Source: Paracoccus aminovorans
GTDB lineage: Bacteria; Pseudomonadota; Alphaproteobacteria; Rhodobacterales; Rhodobacteraceae
Direction: 5' to 3'
Assembly (NCBI RefSeq): GCF_900005615.1
Contig: NZ_LN832559.1
Coordinates: 1,642,837-1,706,836 of the forward strand
Length of the DNA: 64,000 nt
Part shown: piece after piece, positions 28,503 to 63,159 of the stretch
Position numbering within the stretch: position 1 is the first letter of the stretch
Layout: each line of letters opens with the position of its first letter
Made by a program: the position numbers and the translations under genes
The notes under the pieces: model-generated
Database searches by the model: none
Seen by the model: only the letters and a program-made list of their open reading frames with translations
What the model was told of the DNA's origin: nothing

Positions 28503-30797
28503 TCAGTCCGGGTTGTCCATCCGCGCCCGGATGCTGACCGAGCCCCGCACCGCCGCGTTCCAGTTCAGCGCGATCTGGCGCTGGTTCGCCGCCAGCTGCG
28601 TCTGCACCCAGGGCATCTCGCTGACCCGGGCGTTGGACGAATTGGTGATGGCGCTGGTCGCGACCACGGATTGCACGTTGCGCACCCAGCCGTTGAAGGG
28701 CAGCGCCCGGTCCACCGAGATCAGCCAGCGGTTCGAGGCCGTGGCCTGGCTGTGGCTGATGTCCACCGGGTTCGCCACATAGACGTTCACGCCGTTGAAC
28801 ATGTTGCCCTGGAACTGGATGTTGCGCATGCGCTGATAGTTCAGGTCGGCGAAGGTGGTGTCGACCTTGTCGATGCGGGTGATCTTGTTGTTCAGCGACT
28901 TGAACACATTGCCCATCACCGCCAGCCCGTGGATGAAATGCCCGGCGCCATAGGGCTTCACCACCAGCCAGTTGAAGCCCAGCGTCGTGTTCGAGGCCAG
29001 GAAGGTGTTGCCGGTGACGGTCAGCCCGCCGAAGGAGTATTCGTCGCCCTCGAAATTCGGCAGCGGGTCGTGCTCGTTGGTCCATTCGATCGAGCAGTTG
29101 TCGATGTAATTGCCGGTGATCGTCGCCTGCACGTTGGTCTGGGTCAGGATCAGCCCGCCGAAGCGCACGCCGTTCTGGGCATTGTCGCCCTGGAACCAGT
29201 GATTGCCCTCGATCATGTGGCCGCCGCCGTTCATCACCGCGAAATGCGCGAAGCGGATGAAGCGGCTGTGGCGGATCTTGGTGTCGTTGTTGTTGACGTT
29301 GAGGGCGATGGTCTTGCGGTTCTGCGCCAGGTCGCTCATCTCGTTCGACAGGAACTCGCAGCGGTCGACCAGCATGCCCTGGCAGCCGGTGCCGATCGAG
29401 GTGATGCCGCGATCCTTGGGCCGGGTGAAATAGCAGTCGCGGATGCAGTTCATGGTGCCGGTCTTGGCCAGCATGATGCCGCTGGCATTGCCCTCCAGCA
29501 GGAATTCGATGTCGTCGAAGTTGAAGCGGCTGAGCTGCTCCATGCCCGAGAAGTCCAGCGCATAGCGATAGCGCTCGAAGGTATAGGACCGGGTGCCCGG
29601 GCCGCCGTAAAGCGGGCTCGACAGCGTCAGCGTGCCCTGCGCCACGTTCTTGTCGCGGACATAGACCTCGCGCCCGACCCCGTTGCCGATGACGCGAGAG
29701 CCGATCTCGATATTGGCGATATTGGCGACATTGGACAGCGTCAGCGACTGGTTCACCGCATAGGTCGCGGCCGAGGTCACCGTGCGCGTGTCCCAGGCCG
29801 AGCCCGCCACGATGGCGATCTGGCCGTTCGCGATCACCCGACGGTTGGCAAAGCTGGTCATGCCCGGCGCGGCATCGGTGATGACCAGCGGCTCGGTCAG
29901 GTGGACGACCCGCCCGCAGAGGTCGAGGCCCGCGTGATCGGTGAAGCCCAGCAGCGCCTGGACCGCCCGCTTCAGCCCCTCGGTCTCGTCGCCGAAGGCC
30001 GAGGCATAGGTGGGGAAGTCGAAGCTGCGCGTCAGCGCCAATCGGGCGGCACGCGGCATCTTCAGCGTGCCAGTGAAGCGGATCGGCGAGGCGACGCTCA
30101 GGTCCGAGCCGATGTAGAACATCCCGGCCGGCACCAGGATGCCGCGCCCGGCCGCGGCCTGGTCGGCGGCGACGAAGGCGGCGCGGTCGTCCGCCGTGCC
30201 ATTGCCGATGGCGCCGAAATCGCGCACGTCGACCCAGTCCAGCATGTCGGGCACAAAGGCCGCCGTCACGTCCTCGATGACGATGCTCTCGATGCGGATC
30301 GAGCCGTTGTTGTCGCCGATCAGGTCCAGGCCGAAATGGCCGAAGACCGCATTGCGCCCCCAGGCCATGTCCACGCCGTCGCGGCGCCCGGTGCCGACTA
30401 TGGCGGAAACCTCGACCACCTGGCCATAGCCCGGCAGCACCGTCGCCGGACCAGTCTGGGTCACGCCGGCGACATTGGTGCCGGCGGCATTGCCGGCAAA
30501 GCCCGCGATCCGCACCTGCGGCAGATTGCCGGCGATGGCCTTGACCCGCGCCGAGACGCGCAGATAGCTGCCGGGGTTGATCGGCGTGCGCTGCATGTAG
30601 CGCAGCGATGTCACCGTCTCCTGCTTCAGGATCTCGAGACAGCTGCCGAAATCCTCGTCCGCCGGGACCAGCGCGGCATTGGCCGCCCCCGCCCAGGTCG
30701 GAGAGCCCGCCCGCCCGTCGGTCTGGGACCACTGATTCAGTCCCAGCCGAAAGGCGCGCGGCATCAGCGACTGGTTCCCGATAATCGCAATGGTCAT
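28503..30797 (-). CDS. Right-handed beta-helix protein, GH28/pectate lyase-like (tailspike-like)
   Basis: The 764-residue protein has no signal peptide. Residues about 1-185 look like a jelly-roll carbohydrate-binding or head domain. From about residue 190 (VDVRDFGAIGNGTADDRAAF) the pectate lyase 3/GH28-related fold starts, with many short beta-helix rungs rich in Asn and Gly (for example TITGNYIDN, LTVTGNTF), and a beta-rich C-terminal domain. It matches a type I have seen in many Rhodobacteraceae. Phage tailspikes, gene transfer agent fibres and polysaccharide-processing proteins share this design. A perfect CtrA-type box lies upstream. The substrate is unknown. Confidence 0.85.
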   Translation of the reverse strand: MTIAIIGNQSLMPRAFRLGLNQWSQTDGRAGSPTWAGAANAALVPADEDFGSCLEILKQETVTSLRYMQRTPINPGSYLRVSARVKAIAGNLPQVRIAGFAGNAAGTNVAGVTQTGPATVLPGYGQVVEVSAIVGTGRRDGVDMAWGRNAVFGHFGLDLIGDNNGSIRIESIVIEDVTAAFVPDMLDWVDVRDFGAIGNGTADDRAAFVAADQAAAGRGILVPAGMFYIGSDLSVASPIRFTGTLKMPRAARLALTRSFDFPTYASAFGDETEGLKRAVQALLGFTDHAGLDLCGRVVHLTEPLVITDAAPGMTSFANRRVIANGQIAIVAGSAWDTRTVTSAATYAVNQSLTLSNVANIANIEIGSRVIGNGVGREVYVRDKNVAQGTLTLSSPLYGGPGTRSYTFERYRYALDFSGMEQLSRFNFDDIEFLLEGNASGIMLAKTGTMNCIRDCYFTRPKDRGITSIGTGCQGMLVDRCEFLSNEMSDLAQNRKTIALNVNNNDTKIRHSRFIRFAHFAVMNGGGHMIEGNHWFQGDNAQNGVRFGGLILTQTNVQATITGNYIDNCSIEWTNEHDPLPNFEGDEYSFGGLTVTGNTFLASNTTLGFNWLVVKPYGAGHFIHGLAVMGNVFKSLNNKITRIDKVDTTFADLNYQRMRNIQFQGNMFNGVNVYVANPVDISHSQATASNRWLISVDRALPFNGWVRNVQSVVATSAITNSSNARVSEMPWVQTQLAANQRQIALNWNAAVRGSVSIRARMDNPD

Positions 30798-30868: not shown

Positions 30869-30885
30869 GTTAACCAGTCGTTAAC
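30869..30885. promoter_or_regulatory. Perfect CtrA-type box upstream of the beta-helix gene
   Basis: The sequence GTTAAC-CAGTC-GTTAAC satisfies the alphaproteobacterial CtrA consensus TTAA-N7-TTAAC on both strands. It begins 72 bases upstream of the start of the minus-strand beta-helix gene. The same architecture occurs upstream of the muramidase gene at 61838-61854. Confidence 0.7.
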
Positions 30886-58182: not shown

Positions 58183-58635
58183 TCAGTCGCGCATGATCTG
58201 GTCCAGCCGCGCCTTCTCGGCCTCGCTGAGCGTCTCGGCGCGCTCCTCGGCCGGGCGGCGCGAGCGGACAAAGCGCCAGCCCAGGGCCAAGGCCAGCAGC
58301 GCCATCACCGGCCCGGCCAGGTAGAGCAGCCAGTTCGCCCCGCGCGCGGGCGGCTGGAACAGCACATATTCCCCGAAACGGTCGGTCACCGCCTGCACGG
58401 CCTGGGCGTCGCTGTCGCCCGCGACCAGCCGCTCGCGCAGATAAAGCCGCAGGTCGCGGCTGATCGGCGCATTCGATTCGTCGATGGTCTCGCCCTGGCA
58501 GACCGGGCAGCGCAGCACCTTCGAGATCTCGCGGGCGCGGGCCTCCAGAGCGGGGTCCGAGAGGACCTCGTCGGGCTGCACGGCCAGCGCCGGCAGGGCG
58601 ATCAGCAGCGACAGGGCCAGGATCAGCGCGCGCAT
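58183..58635 (-). CDS. ccmH: Cytochrome c maturation protein CcmH
   Basis: CcmH is a membrane thiol oxidoreductase that prepares apocytochrome c for heme attachment. The 150-residue protein has a signal peptide, the motif LRCPVCQ with the redox CxxC, and one C-terminal membrane helix. It lies four bases after ccmF. The ATG at 58635 gives the normal length; a longer frame starts within ccmF. Confidence 0.95.
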   Translation of the reverse strand: MRALILALSLLIALPALAVQPDEVLSDPALEARAREISKVLRCPVCQGETIDESNAPISRDLRLYLRERLVAGDSDAQAVQAVTDRFGEYVLFQPPARGANWLLYLAGPVMALLALALGWRFVRSRRPAEERAETLSEAEKARLDQIMRD

Positions 58636-58639
58636 CGGA

Positions 58640-60598
58640 CTACTCCGCCGGCTGCGGCACGATGCCGCGGCGGGCCCCAGCGGCAACGCGATAGCGCCGG
58701 TCCGACAGGCTGACGAAACCGCCGAGCGCCATCAGCCCGCAGCCCAGCCAGATCCAGTTGGCGAAGGGTTTGACATAGCTGCGCACCGCCCAGCCGCCGC
58801 CCTGCTGCGGATCGCCGATCACTAGGTAGAGGTCGCGGAACAGCCCGTTCTGGATCGCCGCCTCGGTCGTGGGCATCGCCTGCACCGGATAGACCCGCTT
58901 TTCGGGATGCAGCAGCGCCACCTGCCGGCCGTCTTTCGCGACGCGCATGGTGGCGACGGTGGCCTCGTAATTGGGGCCGGGCTGCTGCTCGACCTTTTCC
59001 AAGGTGATCTCGTAGCCGGCGACGGTGAAGGATTGGCCGATCCGGGCGACGCGGATGTCCTCGACCTGCCAGGCCATCAGCAGGCTGATGCCGATGAAGG
59101 TGACGCCCAGGCCGCCATGGGCCAGCGCCTTGCCCCAATCCGCGCGCGGCAGCCGCGCCAGTCGCGACAGCCCAGAATTGCCGGTGCGCAGCCACAGATC
59201 GACCGCCGCACCGCCAAGCAGCCAGGCGCCCAGGCCGGCGCCGATCACTGCCAGCGCCGAATGGCCGGTCGAGACGGCATAGACCAGCGCCGCAACCGCC
59301 GCCGCGAAGGCCAGCGCGCCGCGCAGGGGCATCAGTGCCCGCTTCAGCTTGCCGCGTTTCCAGGGCAGGATCGCGCCCAGGGGCAGGACGATGGCCAGCA
59401 CCACCATGAACGGAGTGAAGGCCTTTTCAAAGAAGGGCGCGCCGACCGACAGCTTCTTGTCCCAGGCCATCTCGGCGACCAAGGGCCAGACCGTGCCGAT
59501 GAAGACCACGAAGGCCGAGACCGCCAGCAGGATGTTGTTGAGCACCAGCGCGCCTTCGCGCGACACCGGGGCGAATACGCCCTTGGCCTGCATCGACGGG
59601 GCCCGGAAGGCATAGAGCGTCAGCGCGCCGCCGACAAAGACAGCCAGGATCGCCAGGATGAACACCCCGCGCTCGGGGTCGCTGGCAAAGCTGTGGACGG
59701 ATGTGATCACGCCCGAGCGCACGATGAAGGTGCCGATCAGCGAAAAGCCGAAGGCCAGGATCGCCAGCAGGATGGTCCAGCTTTTCAGCACTTCGCGCTT
59801 TTCGACGACGATGGCGGAATGCAGCAGCGCGGCCGCGATCAGCCAGGGCATGAAGCTGGCGTTCTCGACCGGGTCCCAGAACCAGAAGCCGCCCCAGCCG
59901 AGCTCGTAATAGGCCCACCAGGACCCCAGCGCGATGCCGATGGTCAGGAACACCCAGGCGGCCAGCGTCCAGGGCCGCACCCAGCGCGCCCAGGCGGCAT
60001 CGACCCTTCCCTCGATCAGGGCGGCGACGGCAAAGCTGAAGGCCATCGAAAGCCCGACATAGCCCAGGTAGAGGAACGGCGGATGGAAGGCCAGGCCGGG
60101 ATCCTGCAGCAGCGGGTTCAGGTCGCGGCCGTCGAAAGGCGGGCTCGCCAGGCGCGTGAACGGGTTCGAGGTGAACAGGATGAAGCCCAGGAAGGCCGCG
60201 CCGATCGCGGCCTGCACCGACAGCACCCGGGCCCGCAGCCGCGGCGGCAGGTTGGCGTCGAAGCTGGCCGCAGCCGCGCCGAACAGCGACAGGATCAGCA
60301 CCCACAGCAGCATCGAGCCCTCGTGATTGCCCCAGACGCCGCTGATCTTGTAGAGCATGGGCTTGGCGGTATGGGAATTTTCATAGACCAGCAGGACCGA
60401 GAAATCCGAGGTCACGAAGGCCACCGTCAGCGCCGCGAAGGCGATGCCGATCAGCCCGAATTGCGCCAGGGCGGCGGGCCGCGCGCTGTCGATCCAGCCG
60501 CTCCAGCCCTTGGCGGCGCCGATCTGCGGCACGATCATCTGGAAGATCGCCACGGCGAAGGCAAGGATCAGGGCGAAATGGCCGATTTCGGCGATCAT
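58640..60598 (-). CDS. ccmF: Heme lyase CcmF
   Basis: CcmF is the large membrane component of the System I cytochrome c synthetase. The 652-residue protein has about 14 helices, the tryptophan-rich WWD-type motif (GWGGFWFWDPVENASFMPW) that binds heme and conserved periplasmic histidines. It precedes ccmH, as usual. ccmE normally lies next to it, but here a lysis cassette separates the two. Confidence 0.97.
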   Translation of the reverse strand: MIAEIGHFALILAFAVAIFQMIVPQIGAAKGWSGWIDSARPAALAQFGLIGIAFAALTVAFVTSDFSVLLVYENSHTAKPMLYKISGVWGNHEGSMLLWVLILSLFGAAAASFDANLPPRLRARVLSVQAAIGAAFLGFILFTSNPFTRLASPPFDGRDLNPLLQDPGLAFHPPFLYLGYVGLSMAFSFAVAALIEGRVDAAWARWVRPWTLAAWVFLTIGIALGSWWAYYELGWGGFWFWDPVENASFMPWLIAAALLHSAIVVEKREVLKSWTILLAILAFGFSLIGTFIVRSGVITSVHSFASDPERGVFILAILAVFVGGALTLYAFRAPSMQAKGVFAPVSREGALVLNNILLAVSAFVVFIGTVWPLVAEMAWDKKLSVGAPFFEKAFTPFMVVLAIVLPLGAILPWKRGKLKRALMPLRGALAFAAAVAALVYAVSTGHSALAVIGAGLGAWLLGGAAVDLWLRTGNSGLSRLARLPRADWGKALAHGGLGVTFIGISLLMAWQVEDIRVARIGQSFTVAGYEITLEKVEQQPGPNYEATVATMRVAKDGRQVALLHPEKRVYPVQAMPTTEAAIQNGLFRDLYLVIGDPQQGGGWAVRSYVKPFANWIWLGCGLMALGGFVSLSDRRYRVAAGARRGIVPQPAE

Positions 60599-60685
60599 GG
60601 GCTTCCTCCGGGTGGCTGACCGCAGAATAGCCGCGGCGCGGGCGGCAAGCCAGCCCCCCGCGCCTGTCAGATTGTCACAGAAGCG

Positions 60686-61192
60686 CTAATGCTCGGCCTG
60701 GGCGCTGGCCCAGTCGCGCAGGGCGGCGTTGTCCTCGAAGCCGTCGCCCTCCAGCGCGGCCAGCGTCGCCGCCGCCGCATTGGCCCGGATCACCGGCCGG
60801 GTGCGGAAGTAATGCGCCTCGCGCGCGCCGAAATAGAAGCTGATGATCGCGCCCAGAAGCCACCACAGCGGTTCCGGCACCAGATTCAGGTTCTGCATCC
60901 GCAGCCCGAAACCCACCGGCTCGGCCATGGCATAGACGAACAGGCCCACCGTGCCCATGGTCAGCATCGGGCGCGGCAGGCGGTTCAGCCCGTTCATCAG
61001 CCCGTCGAACCAGCCGCGCGGCTGGGCCGCGAACTCGCCCGAAAGCTGGGTGATGGCGCGGGCATAGGCTTCCTCGTCCAGCTCCATGCGGCGGGTCGCG
61101 TTCTCGCGGAAAACCTCGGCCATGCCGGTCGCGGCATTCGCGACCGTGGTGACGGCGGTGCCGGCGCCCAAGAAACGGTCCATCACCCCCAT
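60686..61192 (-). CDS. Holin family protein (3TM type)
   Basis: The 168-residue protein has an N-terminal soluble region, two strong membrane helices (about 75-95 and 107-125) and an amphipathic third, the plan of 3TM holins that pair with GH108 muramidases. It would let the muramidase cross the inner membrane. The start at 61192 overlaps the muramidase gene by ten bases; Met4 at 61183 is a second option. It is followed by ccmF 87 bases later. Confidence 0.85.
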   Translation of the reverse strand: MGVMDRFLGAGTAVTTVANAATGMAEVFRENATRRMELDEEAYARAITQLSGEFAAQPRGWFDGLMNGLNRLPRPMLTMGTVGLFVYAMAEPVGFGLRMQNLNLVPEPLWWLLGAIISFYFGAREAHYFRTRPVIRANAAAATLAALEGDGFEDNAALRDWASAQAEH

Positions 61193-61794
61193 TTCGCCAC
61201 CCGCGCCCGATGTTCCGCCGCCGTCAGGTGATACTTGGCCGAGATGAATTCCTCGGCCCGGGTGATCCAGCCGCCCTTGCCGCCCGCCTTGGTGCGGGCG
61301 TATTTGCGGCTGGCCGGGCGGGCGTCGCCCAACGCGTAATAGTAGTTGCGCCGCGCGATGCCATAGGCGTCGGCGAAATAGCCCGGCGCCGCCATGTCGG
61401 CCTGGGCCGCGGCGCGGATCGTCCCCGGCCCGACCAGCCCGTCGTCCGTCGCCGGAAAGCCCATCCGAGTCACCAGCCGCTGCAGGATCTTGACCGCATT
61501 GGTGCCGGCATTGACATACATGTCGAAGACCGAGGCCTGCACCGAGCCCGGCAGTTCCGCCAGCCGCGGCCGGCGGAAGTAATGCTCGACATAGATGCGC
61601 GACGCATCCGCCCGAGTCAGCGCCTTGACGTCGGCCACGTCCACCCTGCCGTCGCCGGTCTTGTCGATCCCCAGCCGTTGCAGCGTGGCCAGCGTGACGC
61701 CGTAATTGGTCGCCCCGCCCGGGTCGTCGGGGTCGTTGACGTAACCCCCTTCACGCGCGACGATTTCCGCCGCGATCTGTTCCACTGTCTTCAT
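61183..61794 (-). CDS. Holin-associated N-acetylmuramidase (GH108)
   Basis: The 203-residue enzyme cuts the glycan backbone of peptidoglycan. It shows the GH108 signature with catalytic Glu15 (REGGYVNDPDDPGGATNYGV) and a C-terminal PG_binding_3-like region (GLVGPGTIRAA). There is no signal peptide, so export depends on the holin encoded next. This pair resembles the lysis genes that gene transfer agents of Rhodobacter use for release, and secretion-associated pairs elsewhere. A CtrA-type box lies 44 bases upstream. Confidence 0.9.
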   Translation of the reverse strand: MKTVEQIAAEIVAREGGYVNDPDDPGGATNYGVTLATLQRLGIDKTGDGRVDVADVKALTRADASRIYVEHYFRRPRLAELPGSVQASVFDMYVNAGTNAVKILQRLVTRMGFPATDDGLVGPGTIRAAAQADMAAPGYFADAYGIARRNYYYALGDARPASRKYARTKAGGKGGWITRAEEFISAKYHLTAAEHRARVAKWG

Positions 61795-61837
61795 TCCAGC
61801 CCCCACACATGAAGCGGGCCAAGGCTGGGGTTTCGCG

Positions 61838-61854
61838 GTTAACCTTTCGTTAAC
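61838..61854. promoter_or_regulatory. Perfect CtrA-type box upstream of the lysis cassette
   Basis: GTTAAC-CTTTC-GTTAAC fits TTAA-N7-TTAAC on both strands. It begins 44 bases upstream of the muramidase start and 31 bases after the ccmE stop, so the cassette probably has its own promoter controlled by CtrA. Confidence 0.75.
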
Positions 61855-61884
61855 CGGGCGCGCGTTGCGCCGGCGGCGCGGCCG

Positions 61885-62328
61885 TCAGCTGTTCGGGTCC
61901 TCGTAGACGCCCTGCTCCTTGAGCGAGTCGATGACCTCGCGCGGCATGTAGTTCTCATCGTGCTTGGCAAGGATTTCGCTGGCGACGAAGGTCTCGCCCT
62001 CCATCCTGCCGGTGCCGATCATGCCCTGCCCCTCGGCGAAAAGGTCGGGCAGCACGCCGGTGAAGCGCACGGGGATGGAGGCGCCGCCATCGGTGACGCG
62101 GAAGCTGACGGTCTCGCCGGCGCCGCGCAGCAAAGAGCCGTCCTCGACCAGCCCCCCCAGGCGAAAGACCTCGCCGGCAGCGGGCGGGTTCTCGGCCATC
62201 TGGCTGGGCGAGCGATAGAGGTTGATGCCGTCGCGAAAGCCGTAACCGATCAGCCCGACCGCCAGGATCAGCGCGATGGCCGCGGCGGCAAGGATCTGGA
62301 TTCTACGCTTTTTCTTCAGCGATTTCAT
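61885..62328 (-). CDS. ccmE: Heme chaperone CcmE
   Basis: CcmE binds heme covalently in the periplasm and passes it to CcmF. The 147-residue protein has one N-terminal membrane anchor (about 10-30), an OB-fold and the heme-binding His123 in KHDENYMP. It starts 18 bases after murI and could be in one transcript with it. Confidence 0.96.
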   Translation of the reverse strand: MKSLKKKRRIQILAAAAIALILAVGLIGYGFRDGINLYRSPSQMAENPPAAGEVFRLGGLVEDGSLLRGAGETVSFRVTDGGASIPVRFTGVLPDLFAEGQGMIGTGRMEGETFVASEILAKHDENYMPREVIDSLKEQGVYEDPNS

Positions 62329-62346
62329 GGATGTGGCTTTCGATTC

Positions 62347-63159
62347 TCAGGCGCTTTCAAACCTGATCGCATGGCGAAGGAACTGCGTGGCCTTTCCCGA
62401 GACGCGCACCGGATCGCCGGTGGTCAGGAAGCGCGACTGCGTGCCCGGCCCCCGCATCCGGGGGTGGCGATCAAGATAGTCCTCAAGGCTTTCGGCCACC
62501 AGGTCGGGCTGGGAATAGACCCGGACATTCGGTCCCAACGCGTTCTGGAACGCCGCCTGCACCAGCGGATAATGGGTGCAGCCCAGGATCGCGGCCTCGG
62601 GGTGCGGCATCCGGCGCAGCAGCGCCTCGACATGGCTGGCGACCAGCGCCTCGGCCAGGATCTCGTCGCCCATCTCGATGGCGTCCACGACGCCGCCGCA
62701 GGGCTGGGCCTCGACATCGACGCCGATGGCGCGGAAGGCCAGTTCGCGCTGGAAGGCCCGGCTGGCGACGGTGGCCGGGGTGGCGAACAGCGCCACATGC
62801 TTGACCTCGACCTCGCGCGGCGGCGAATTGTCGCCCCAGCGGCGCTCGGTCAGCGCCTCGATCATCGGCACGAAGACACCCAGCACCCGCTTGTCCGCCG
62901 GCAGCCATTTTTCCTGCATGCGCTTCAGCGCCGCGGCCGAGGCGGTGTTGCAGGCCAGGAGCACCAGATCGCAGCCCTCGTCCCACAGCCGCTCGACGCC
63001 GGCGCAGGTCAGGTTGAAGATGTCGTCGGCGTCGCGCACGCCGTAAGGGGCGTGTCTGTTGTCGCCCAGATAGACCAGCGGCAGGTCCGGCATGCGCGCG
63101 GCGACGGCGCCCAGCACGGTCAGCCCGCCCAAGCCCGAATCGAAAACGCCCACCGCCAT
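62347..63159 (-). CDS. murI: Glutamate racemase MurI
   Basis: MurI makes D-glutamate for peptidoglycan. The 270-residue protein contains both catalytic cysteines, in LACNTAS and LGCTHYPL, and the start [20 protein letters not shown] site precedes the ATG at 63159. Family length and motif order are normal. It lies upstream of ccmE on the same strand. Confidence 0.95.

Follow-up and report, generated by a model that had tools for sequence, protein, structure and literature searches.

A muramidase-holin gene pair behind a conserved CtrA-type box in the ccm locus of Paracoccus as the probable lysis module of an RcGTA-type gene transfer agent

The window analyzed here is a stretch of 64,000 nucleotides from the chromosome of Paracoccus aminovorans, whose genome (G000) comprises 4.04 Mb in four contigs. 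On the minus strand, one region of the window presents the order murI, ccmE, a CtrA-type box, muramidase, holin, ccmF and ccmH. The murI gene (62347-63159) lies upstream of ccmE (61885..62328; PF03100 and NF009731), which is the upstream neighbor of the box and of the gene for a GH108 muramidase (endolysin) of 203 amino acids (61183..61794; PF05838, PF09374 and NF040573, above cut-off). The gene for a holin of 168 amino acids follows (60686..61192; PF11351, GTA_holin_3TM), then its downstream neighbor ccmF (58640..60598; PF16327, TIGR00353) and ccmH (58183..58686; PF03918), all on the minus strand. The box (GTTAACGAAAGGTTAAC) occupies positions 61838-61854, also on the minus strand, 43 bases 5' of the muramidase ATG and 30 bases past the ccmE stop codon, and is a perfect copy of GTTAAC-N5-GTTAAC (TTAA-N7-TTAA). 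The Pfam and NCBIfam matches and the coordinates thus bear out the first-pass annotation of this DNA, which had placed a GH108 muramidase and a holin between ccmE and ccmF, preceded by such a site. An alternative GTG start of the muramidase is possible at 61806. The muramidase and holin genes overlap by 10 bases and are therefore probably co-translated. Two further scans of 60550-62400 carry little weight: no terminator-like site was found versus 1.4 expected in shuffled sequences, and the single promoter-like site lies at the ccmE start, with none before the muramidase.

The muramidase matches the Pfam family Glyco_hydro_108 with 98.9 bits, in addition to PG_binding_3, and the NCBIfam equivalog NF040573 ("holin-associated N-acetylmuramidase") with 343.5 bits (cut-off 240). 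GH108 chains in the PDB align with it across the N-terminal motif REGGY...DP.D.GGAT..GVT, in which E15, which we take to be the catalytic residue of the family, is kept in >97% of 150 aligned relatives. Hydropathy analysis revealed no hydrophobic export or membrane segment in the muramidase (the 19-residue maximum is 0.6). Residues 44-56 form a DKTGDGRVDVADV stretch, which in our reading resembles a calcium-binding EF-hand loop; a similar stretch is present in PDB 2nr7. The holin matches PF11351 with 99.4 bits (cut-off 24.8) and has no match in NCBIfam or PHROGs. Its initial description as a 3TM protein agrees with the name of the family but only in part with hydropathy, which gives two near-threshold segments, in windows that start at residues 79 and 104, plus a fainter one towards the N terminus. 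The structural model of the holin (mean pLDDT 78.9, pTM 0.33), which has low global confidence and from which only the helix layout is taken, has a long helix at the N terminus and then several shorter ones. In profile searches of the whole genome, GH108 and the GTA holin family were each matched once.

TTAA-N7-TTAA is, we assume, the consensus of CtrA, an orthologue of which is present in the genome (74% to Caulobacter CtrA, with the next best match at 38%). The window holds only two perfect copies of GTTAAC-N5-GTTAAC, at 61838-61854 and at 30869-30885, and 11 matches with up to three mismatches versus 2.3 expected in shuffled sequences. Across the genome, the pattern TTAA-N7-TTAAC gives 11 rows (8 distinct places) versus 6 rows for a reversed-pattern control; since this count is only modestly above the control, the case for the box rests on its conservation and not on its rarity. 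We examined conservation in a set of named loci, the best 80 of at least 567 confirmed relatives of the muramidase (37 from Paracoccus and 43 others). Among these, a full box is present within 250 bases 5' of the muramidase in 36 of the 37 Paracoccus loci (the exception being L027), and the 461,575 bp across the 37 loci contain 36 TTAA-N7-TTAA sites, all of them 5' of the muramidase, one per locus. Upstream of the neighboring genes in these Paracoccus loci no full site was found (ccmF 0/35, ccmE 0/33, murI 0/33, holin 0/37, ccmH 0/35). In further Paracoccus genomes, the full box is present in 28 of 30 muramidase loci examined (from 41 genomes), a sample that may overlap with the 37 loci. The other family members among the best 80 present a full site in one of 43 cases and a half-site within 110 bases in 23, and the 30 best-scoring family loci have no full site and a loose five-base half-site within 250 bases in 26. 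Upstream of the phage relatives of the muramidase neither a full site (0/39) nor a half-site (0/39) was found.

The distribution of the pair is wide. NF040573 is matched above cut-off in all 41 Paracoccus genomes sampled and in 359 of 394 family genomes of at least 99% completeness (some match exists in 367), with no match in 14 control genomes. An above-cut-off muramidase is absent from 35 family genomes (27 give no match at all and 8 a weak match), and the holin is missing from 30 of these. Among the best 80 of at least 567 relatives, the holin gene directly follows that of the muramidase in 79 loci, ccmE ends at most 300 bases 5' of the muramidase in 70, and ccmF starts at most 400 bases past the holin in 38. 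All four genes occur together in 31 of 37 Paracoccus loci and in 3 of 43 others; outside the genus, ccmE still adjoins the pair in 37 of 43 loci, and ccmF in 3. The expectation that ccmE and ccmF are normally adjacent is therefore not the rule, as the pair lies between them in 31 of the 37 Paracoccus loci of this set, and of the proposed synteny the ccmE-muramidase-holin part proved widespread and the ccmF part rare outside Paracoccus. An ArgS-like frame (assigned by sequence reading) lies after or near the holin in 7 of 11 loci inspected, six of which have no ccmF.

Median dN/dS values, calculated from 40 random pairs per gene with omission of pairs that contain stops or have dS outside 0.05-2.5, are 0.169 for the muramidase, 0.237 for the holin, 0.239 for ccmE, 0.199 for ccmF and 0.123 for murI. 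The muramidase and the holin are under purifying selection, with dN/dS like that of ccmE and ccmF. The nearest named muramidases among the matches listed, from P. binzhouensis and P. versutus (91%), are chromosomal and ccm-linked genes, not phage genes. Viral relatives are more remote: in IMG/VR we found 41 viral contigs with muramidase relatives of 55-66% identity, followed by a holin match in 35 of them, but with no ccm gene beside the muramidase in any of the 41, and a phage collection yielded 543 records that match the muramidase, all below 60% identity, and none that match the holin. In one viral contig (L205), GTA-like g13, g14, g15 and DUF2793 genes are followed directly by the same muramidase-holin pair, an order that is possibly a picture of the ancestral arrangement.

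The muramidase tree has 150 rows, of which 110 are genomic loci, 39 stem from viral contigs (out of 41) and one is the window; its bootstrap had not settled. A ccm link is present in 108 of the 111 chromosomal rows, and in two of the three exceptions the flanks are short; the ccm label takes 10 changes on the tree versus a mean of 37 for shuffled labels. The window falls within a set of 39 Paracoccus and Amaricoccus rows (support 100/92) that contains none of the 39 phage rows. The chromosomal copies group mostly by host. They do not form a single clade, and some phage and ccm rows are intermingled on weakly supported branches.

The first-pass annotation had proposed a search for the main GTA capsid cluster, and such a cluster is present. 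At C1:1.03 Mb we found an RcGTA-type head-tail cluster (L091); some 684 kb separate its capsid gene from the muramidase. Against RcGTA proteins, the capsid reaches 502 bits (Rcc01687) and the g15 protein 1661 bits (the corresponding RcGTA chain), and the tape measure matches the NCBIfam equivalog RcGTA_tape with 333 bits (cut-off 220). Ten frames of the cluster match Pfam or NCBIfam models. The head frames are those of the large terminase, portal, prohead protease, capsid and head-tail connector, and the tail frames those of the tail tube, tape measure, distal tail protein of the Rcc01695 family, baseplate hub and NlpC/P60 peptidase, after which come g15 and a DUF2793 protein; these assignments leave out small intervening frames and the small terminase. 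PF13547 gives 6 rows in the genome, which we read as four g15-type genes, the other three of which sit in prophage-like regions. Prophage-like regions with GTA-like tail genes were noted at G000:C1:88000-107900 (L088), 134500-154400 (L089) and 252500-272400 (L090), the first two of which have three tail-region proteins in common at 96-100%. The lysins of the three regions (two phage lysozymes and one M15 peptidase) are unrelated to the GH108 muramidase.

A test for close coupling between muramidase and GTA capsid across the phylogeny gave no significant result. A GTA-type capsid (at least 52% identity) is present in 38 (one of them partial) of 45 family genomes with the muramidase, sampled from the 359 (about every sixth), versus 25 of the 35 without an above-cut-off muramidase (p = 0.18). 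Some of the GTAs must therefore be inactive or depend on different lysis genes, and the muramidase is retained in some genomes that have no GTA capsid. All 41 Paracoccus genomes have the muramidase and 38 have the GTA capsid; the other three have either a fragment of the capsid gene (G395) or none (G409, G424).

Judged by family models, the pair resembles rcc00555 (endolysin) and rcc00556 (holin) of Rhodobacter capsulatus, which are proteins of the same kinds, likewise encoded apart from the head-tail cluster and linked to CtrA (PMC3423380, PMC6854486, PMC9638019, PMC6363796). Disruption of rcc00555 (Hynes et al. 2012) lowered gene transfer and left particles trapped, and according to PMC3423380 that study gave no direct evidence of lytic activity. 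Phosphorylated CtrA and GafA are reported to trigger rcc00555/6 jointly, both being needed for expression of the endolysin, and the promoter contains putative CtrA half-sites (PMC9638019, PMC6363796), in contrast to the full two-arm box of the present locus and of almost every Paracoccus locus examined. Homologues of rcc00555 have also been described beside GTA-like clusters in prophage segments of Methylobacterium nodulans (PMC11409702). The reverse of an EMSA primer published for rcc00555 had no match in 193 loci; for the forward primer, with mismatches allowed, the best 14 matches lie about 1.03-1.25 kb upstream of the muramidase, and a match at the ccmE 3' end was obtained in 2 of 110 loci. 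Among the papers listed by literature searches, no title or abstract opening pointed to a study of CtrA or GTA lysis in Paracoccus, which is not proof of absence.

We consider it likely that the pair is the lysis module of the RcGTA-type GTA of this strain, encoded at a distance from the head-tail cluster and under host control, a reading that the first-pass annotation had suggested and that is now supported by the RcGTA-type cluster, the identity of the protein families, the ccm-linked relatives and the synteny. The data support the pair as a probable Paracoccus counterpart of rcc00555/rcc00556, a phage lysis cassette under the putative control of host CtrA. Promoter activity, timing, lysis and particle release by the pair are inferred. 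In GTA-making cells CtrA, probably in its phosphorylated form, would bind the full box and switch on transcription of the muramidase and holin genes. The muramidase, which has no visible export segment and should for this reason stay in the cytoplasm, would gain access to peptidoglycan once the inner membrane has been opened by the holin and cut it by means of the conserved Glu15, so that the cell bursts and the particles are released.

The second perfect box of the window (30869-30885, minus strand) lies 71 bases upstream of the start of a gene for a tailspike-like or pectate-lyase-like protein of 764 amino acids (28503..30797, minus strand). This protein, referred to below as the spike, has weak matches to phage tail proteins (phrog_18522, 1e-5) and to PF12708 (pectate-lyase-like; 19.3 bits, below the cut-off of 27), and in the PDB only a weak match to an epimerase (E 0.008); the phage collection, and the viral contigs in a pattern scan, gave no match. 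The spike gene is present in 38 of 41 Paracoccus genomes. Among 30 spike loci, 12 have a full CtrA site in the 5' region, and 15 of the remaining 18 have a half-site. The distance between spike and muramidase is at most 40 kb in 7 of 38 genomes, including that of the window (19 have both on one contig); for spike and GTA capsid this is so in 5 of 35 (18 with both on one contig), and for muramidase and capsid in none (0 of 38 genomes, 17 with both on one contig). The protein is a candidate spike or fiber of the GTA, and its box a candidate member of the regulon of the lysis pair; since it is absent from three Paracoccus genomes with a GTA capsid (G403, G420 and G429), a role in the GTA is only a lead. 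As a candidate, the spike gene with its perfect box is a more novel lead than the lysis pair.

The 8 full-site places in the genome lie 5' of the muramidase, the spike and six other genes. These encode a HemJ-like protein (UPF0093; TIGR00701 with 128.3 bits, below the cut-off of 138), a PAS-domain protein (G000:C1:345178, L093), an MshEN-glycosyltransferase (G000), a comM-like protein of the YifB family with a divergent coaBC-like gene (C1:1718893, L099), a CckA-like histidine kinase (C1:2547939, L100; 284 bits versus a cut-off of 1000, the frame being cut by the end of the locus), and an RTX-repeat protein (G000:C1:3050771, L102). Four other Paracoccus genomes contain 36 distinct full sites, half of which (18) lie 5' of relatives of these 8-place genes, with 8 of the 18 contributed by a very close relative of the strain (G430) and one site 3' of a spike gene not counted. 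The site recurs in three of the four genomes for the CckA-like kinase, the muramidase, the glycosyltransferase and the RTX protein (whose relatives reach down to 39% identity, perhaps through similarity of repeats), in two for the comM-like gene and the spike, and in one each for the PAS and HemJ-like proteins. In three genomes (L257 in G405, L238 in G411 and L240 in G430) a full CtrA-type site is followed by a frame of 172-175 amino acids (NYHYMAD...LEWDLH...TRVT). Judged by sequence, the Paracoccus gene set with CtrA sites (RTX, PAS, CckA-like and comM-like) looks related to GTA and DNA uptake, and CtrA control of cckA and divL has been proposed for some Rhodobacterales (PMC2877005). A more far-reaching idea, which we regard as possible and rather doubtful, is that CtrA is the main late-GTA switch of Paracoccus and that full boxes, not half-sites, drive lysis together with a genus-wide spike, which would be an undescribed receptor-binding part of the GTA, in one regulon with the CckA-like kinase and the comM-like gene.

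The module might instead be a host lysis system under CtrA that serves mainly programmed lysis, such as explosive lysis for the formation of vesicles, release of DNA or sharing of nutrients. Such a role would suit the 7 of 45 sampled family genomes that have the muramidase without a GTA-type capsid and the 3 of 41 Paracoccus genomes without an intact one. It also has a precedent in the same genus, as vesicles of P. denitrificans Pd1222 form upon DNA damage through the action of an amidase-holin pair encoded by a prophage; deletion of the holin causes only a partial loss, and the authors infer further holins (PMC8958291). That pair (Pden_0381/Pden_0382) is similar in that lysis depends on a holin, but it differs in its amidase-type endolysin, its single-TM holin and its location in a RecA-controlled prophage (PMC8958291). 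Against a general lysis role stand the relation, at the level of protein families, to rcc00555/rcc00556, the RcGTA-type cluster in the genome, and the box shared with the tailspike-like and comM-like genes; we judge it unlikely.

Far less credible is a prophage remnant that sits by chance between ccm genes. The pair is indeed of a phage kind, with relatives in 41 viral contigs and, in L205, a position directly after GTA-like genes, but neither an integrase nor phage structural genes are found among its flanks, which consist of murI, ccmE, ccmF and ccmH, and it occupies the same place in most of the best 80 of at least 567 relatives. Synteny, the mostly host-like phylogeny and the low dN/dS lead us to reject a remnant, which this conservation contradicts. 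Equally improbable, and also rejected, is the holin-dependent protein secretion system that had been offered as an alternative: a holin and a peptidoglycan hydrolase are its basic parts, and "secretion activator protein" is the name given to two of the GH108 structures in the PDB, but among the flanking genes in the window, murI and those of cytochrome c maturation, there is no secreted cargo gene adjoining the pair.

The rather doubtful idea of CtrA as the main late-GTA switch extends to the ccm locus: fixation of the lysis genes there could couple the release of GTA particles to the maturation of cytochrome c and, if true, would give a reason why ccmE is reported among the 14 of 3,477 families whose trend in translational efficiency follows that of GTA genes (PMC9765227). 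The R. capsulatus kind of GTA lysis module was known; what we infer to be new from the sequences is a Paracoccus member with a fuller, conserved CtrA site. The series from phage relatives without a site, through half-sites in about half of the other named family loci, to full sites in almost every Paracoccus locus examined suggests how a phage cassette came under the control of host CtrA. The pair may also be among the further holins inferred, without a location, in the P. denitrificans vesicle study (PMC8958291). Paracoccus, a laboratory genus, gains a concrete candidate route for the exit of GTA particles from the cell.
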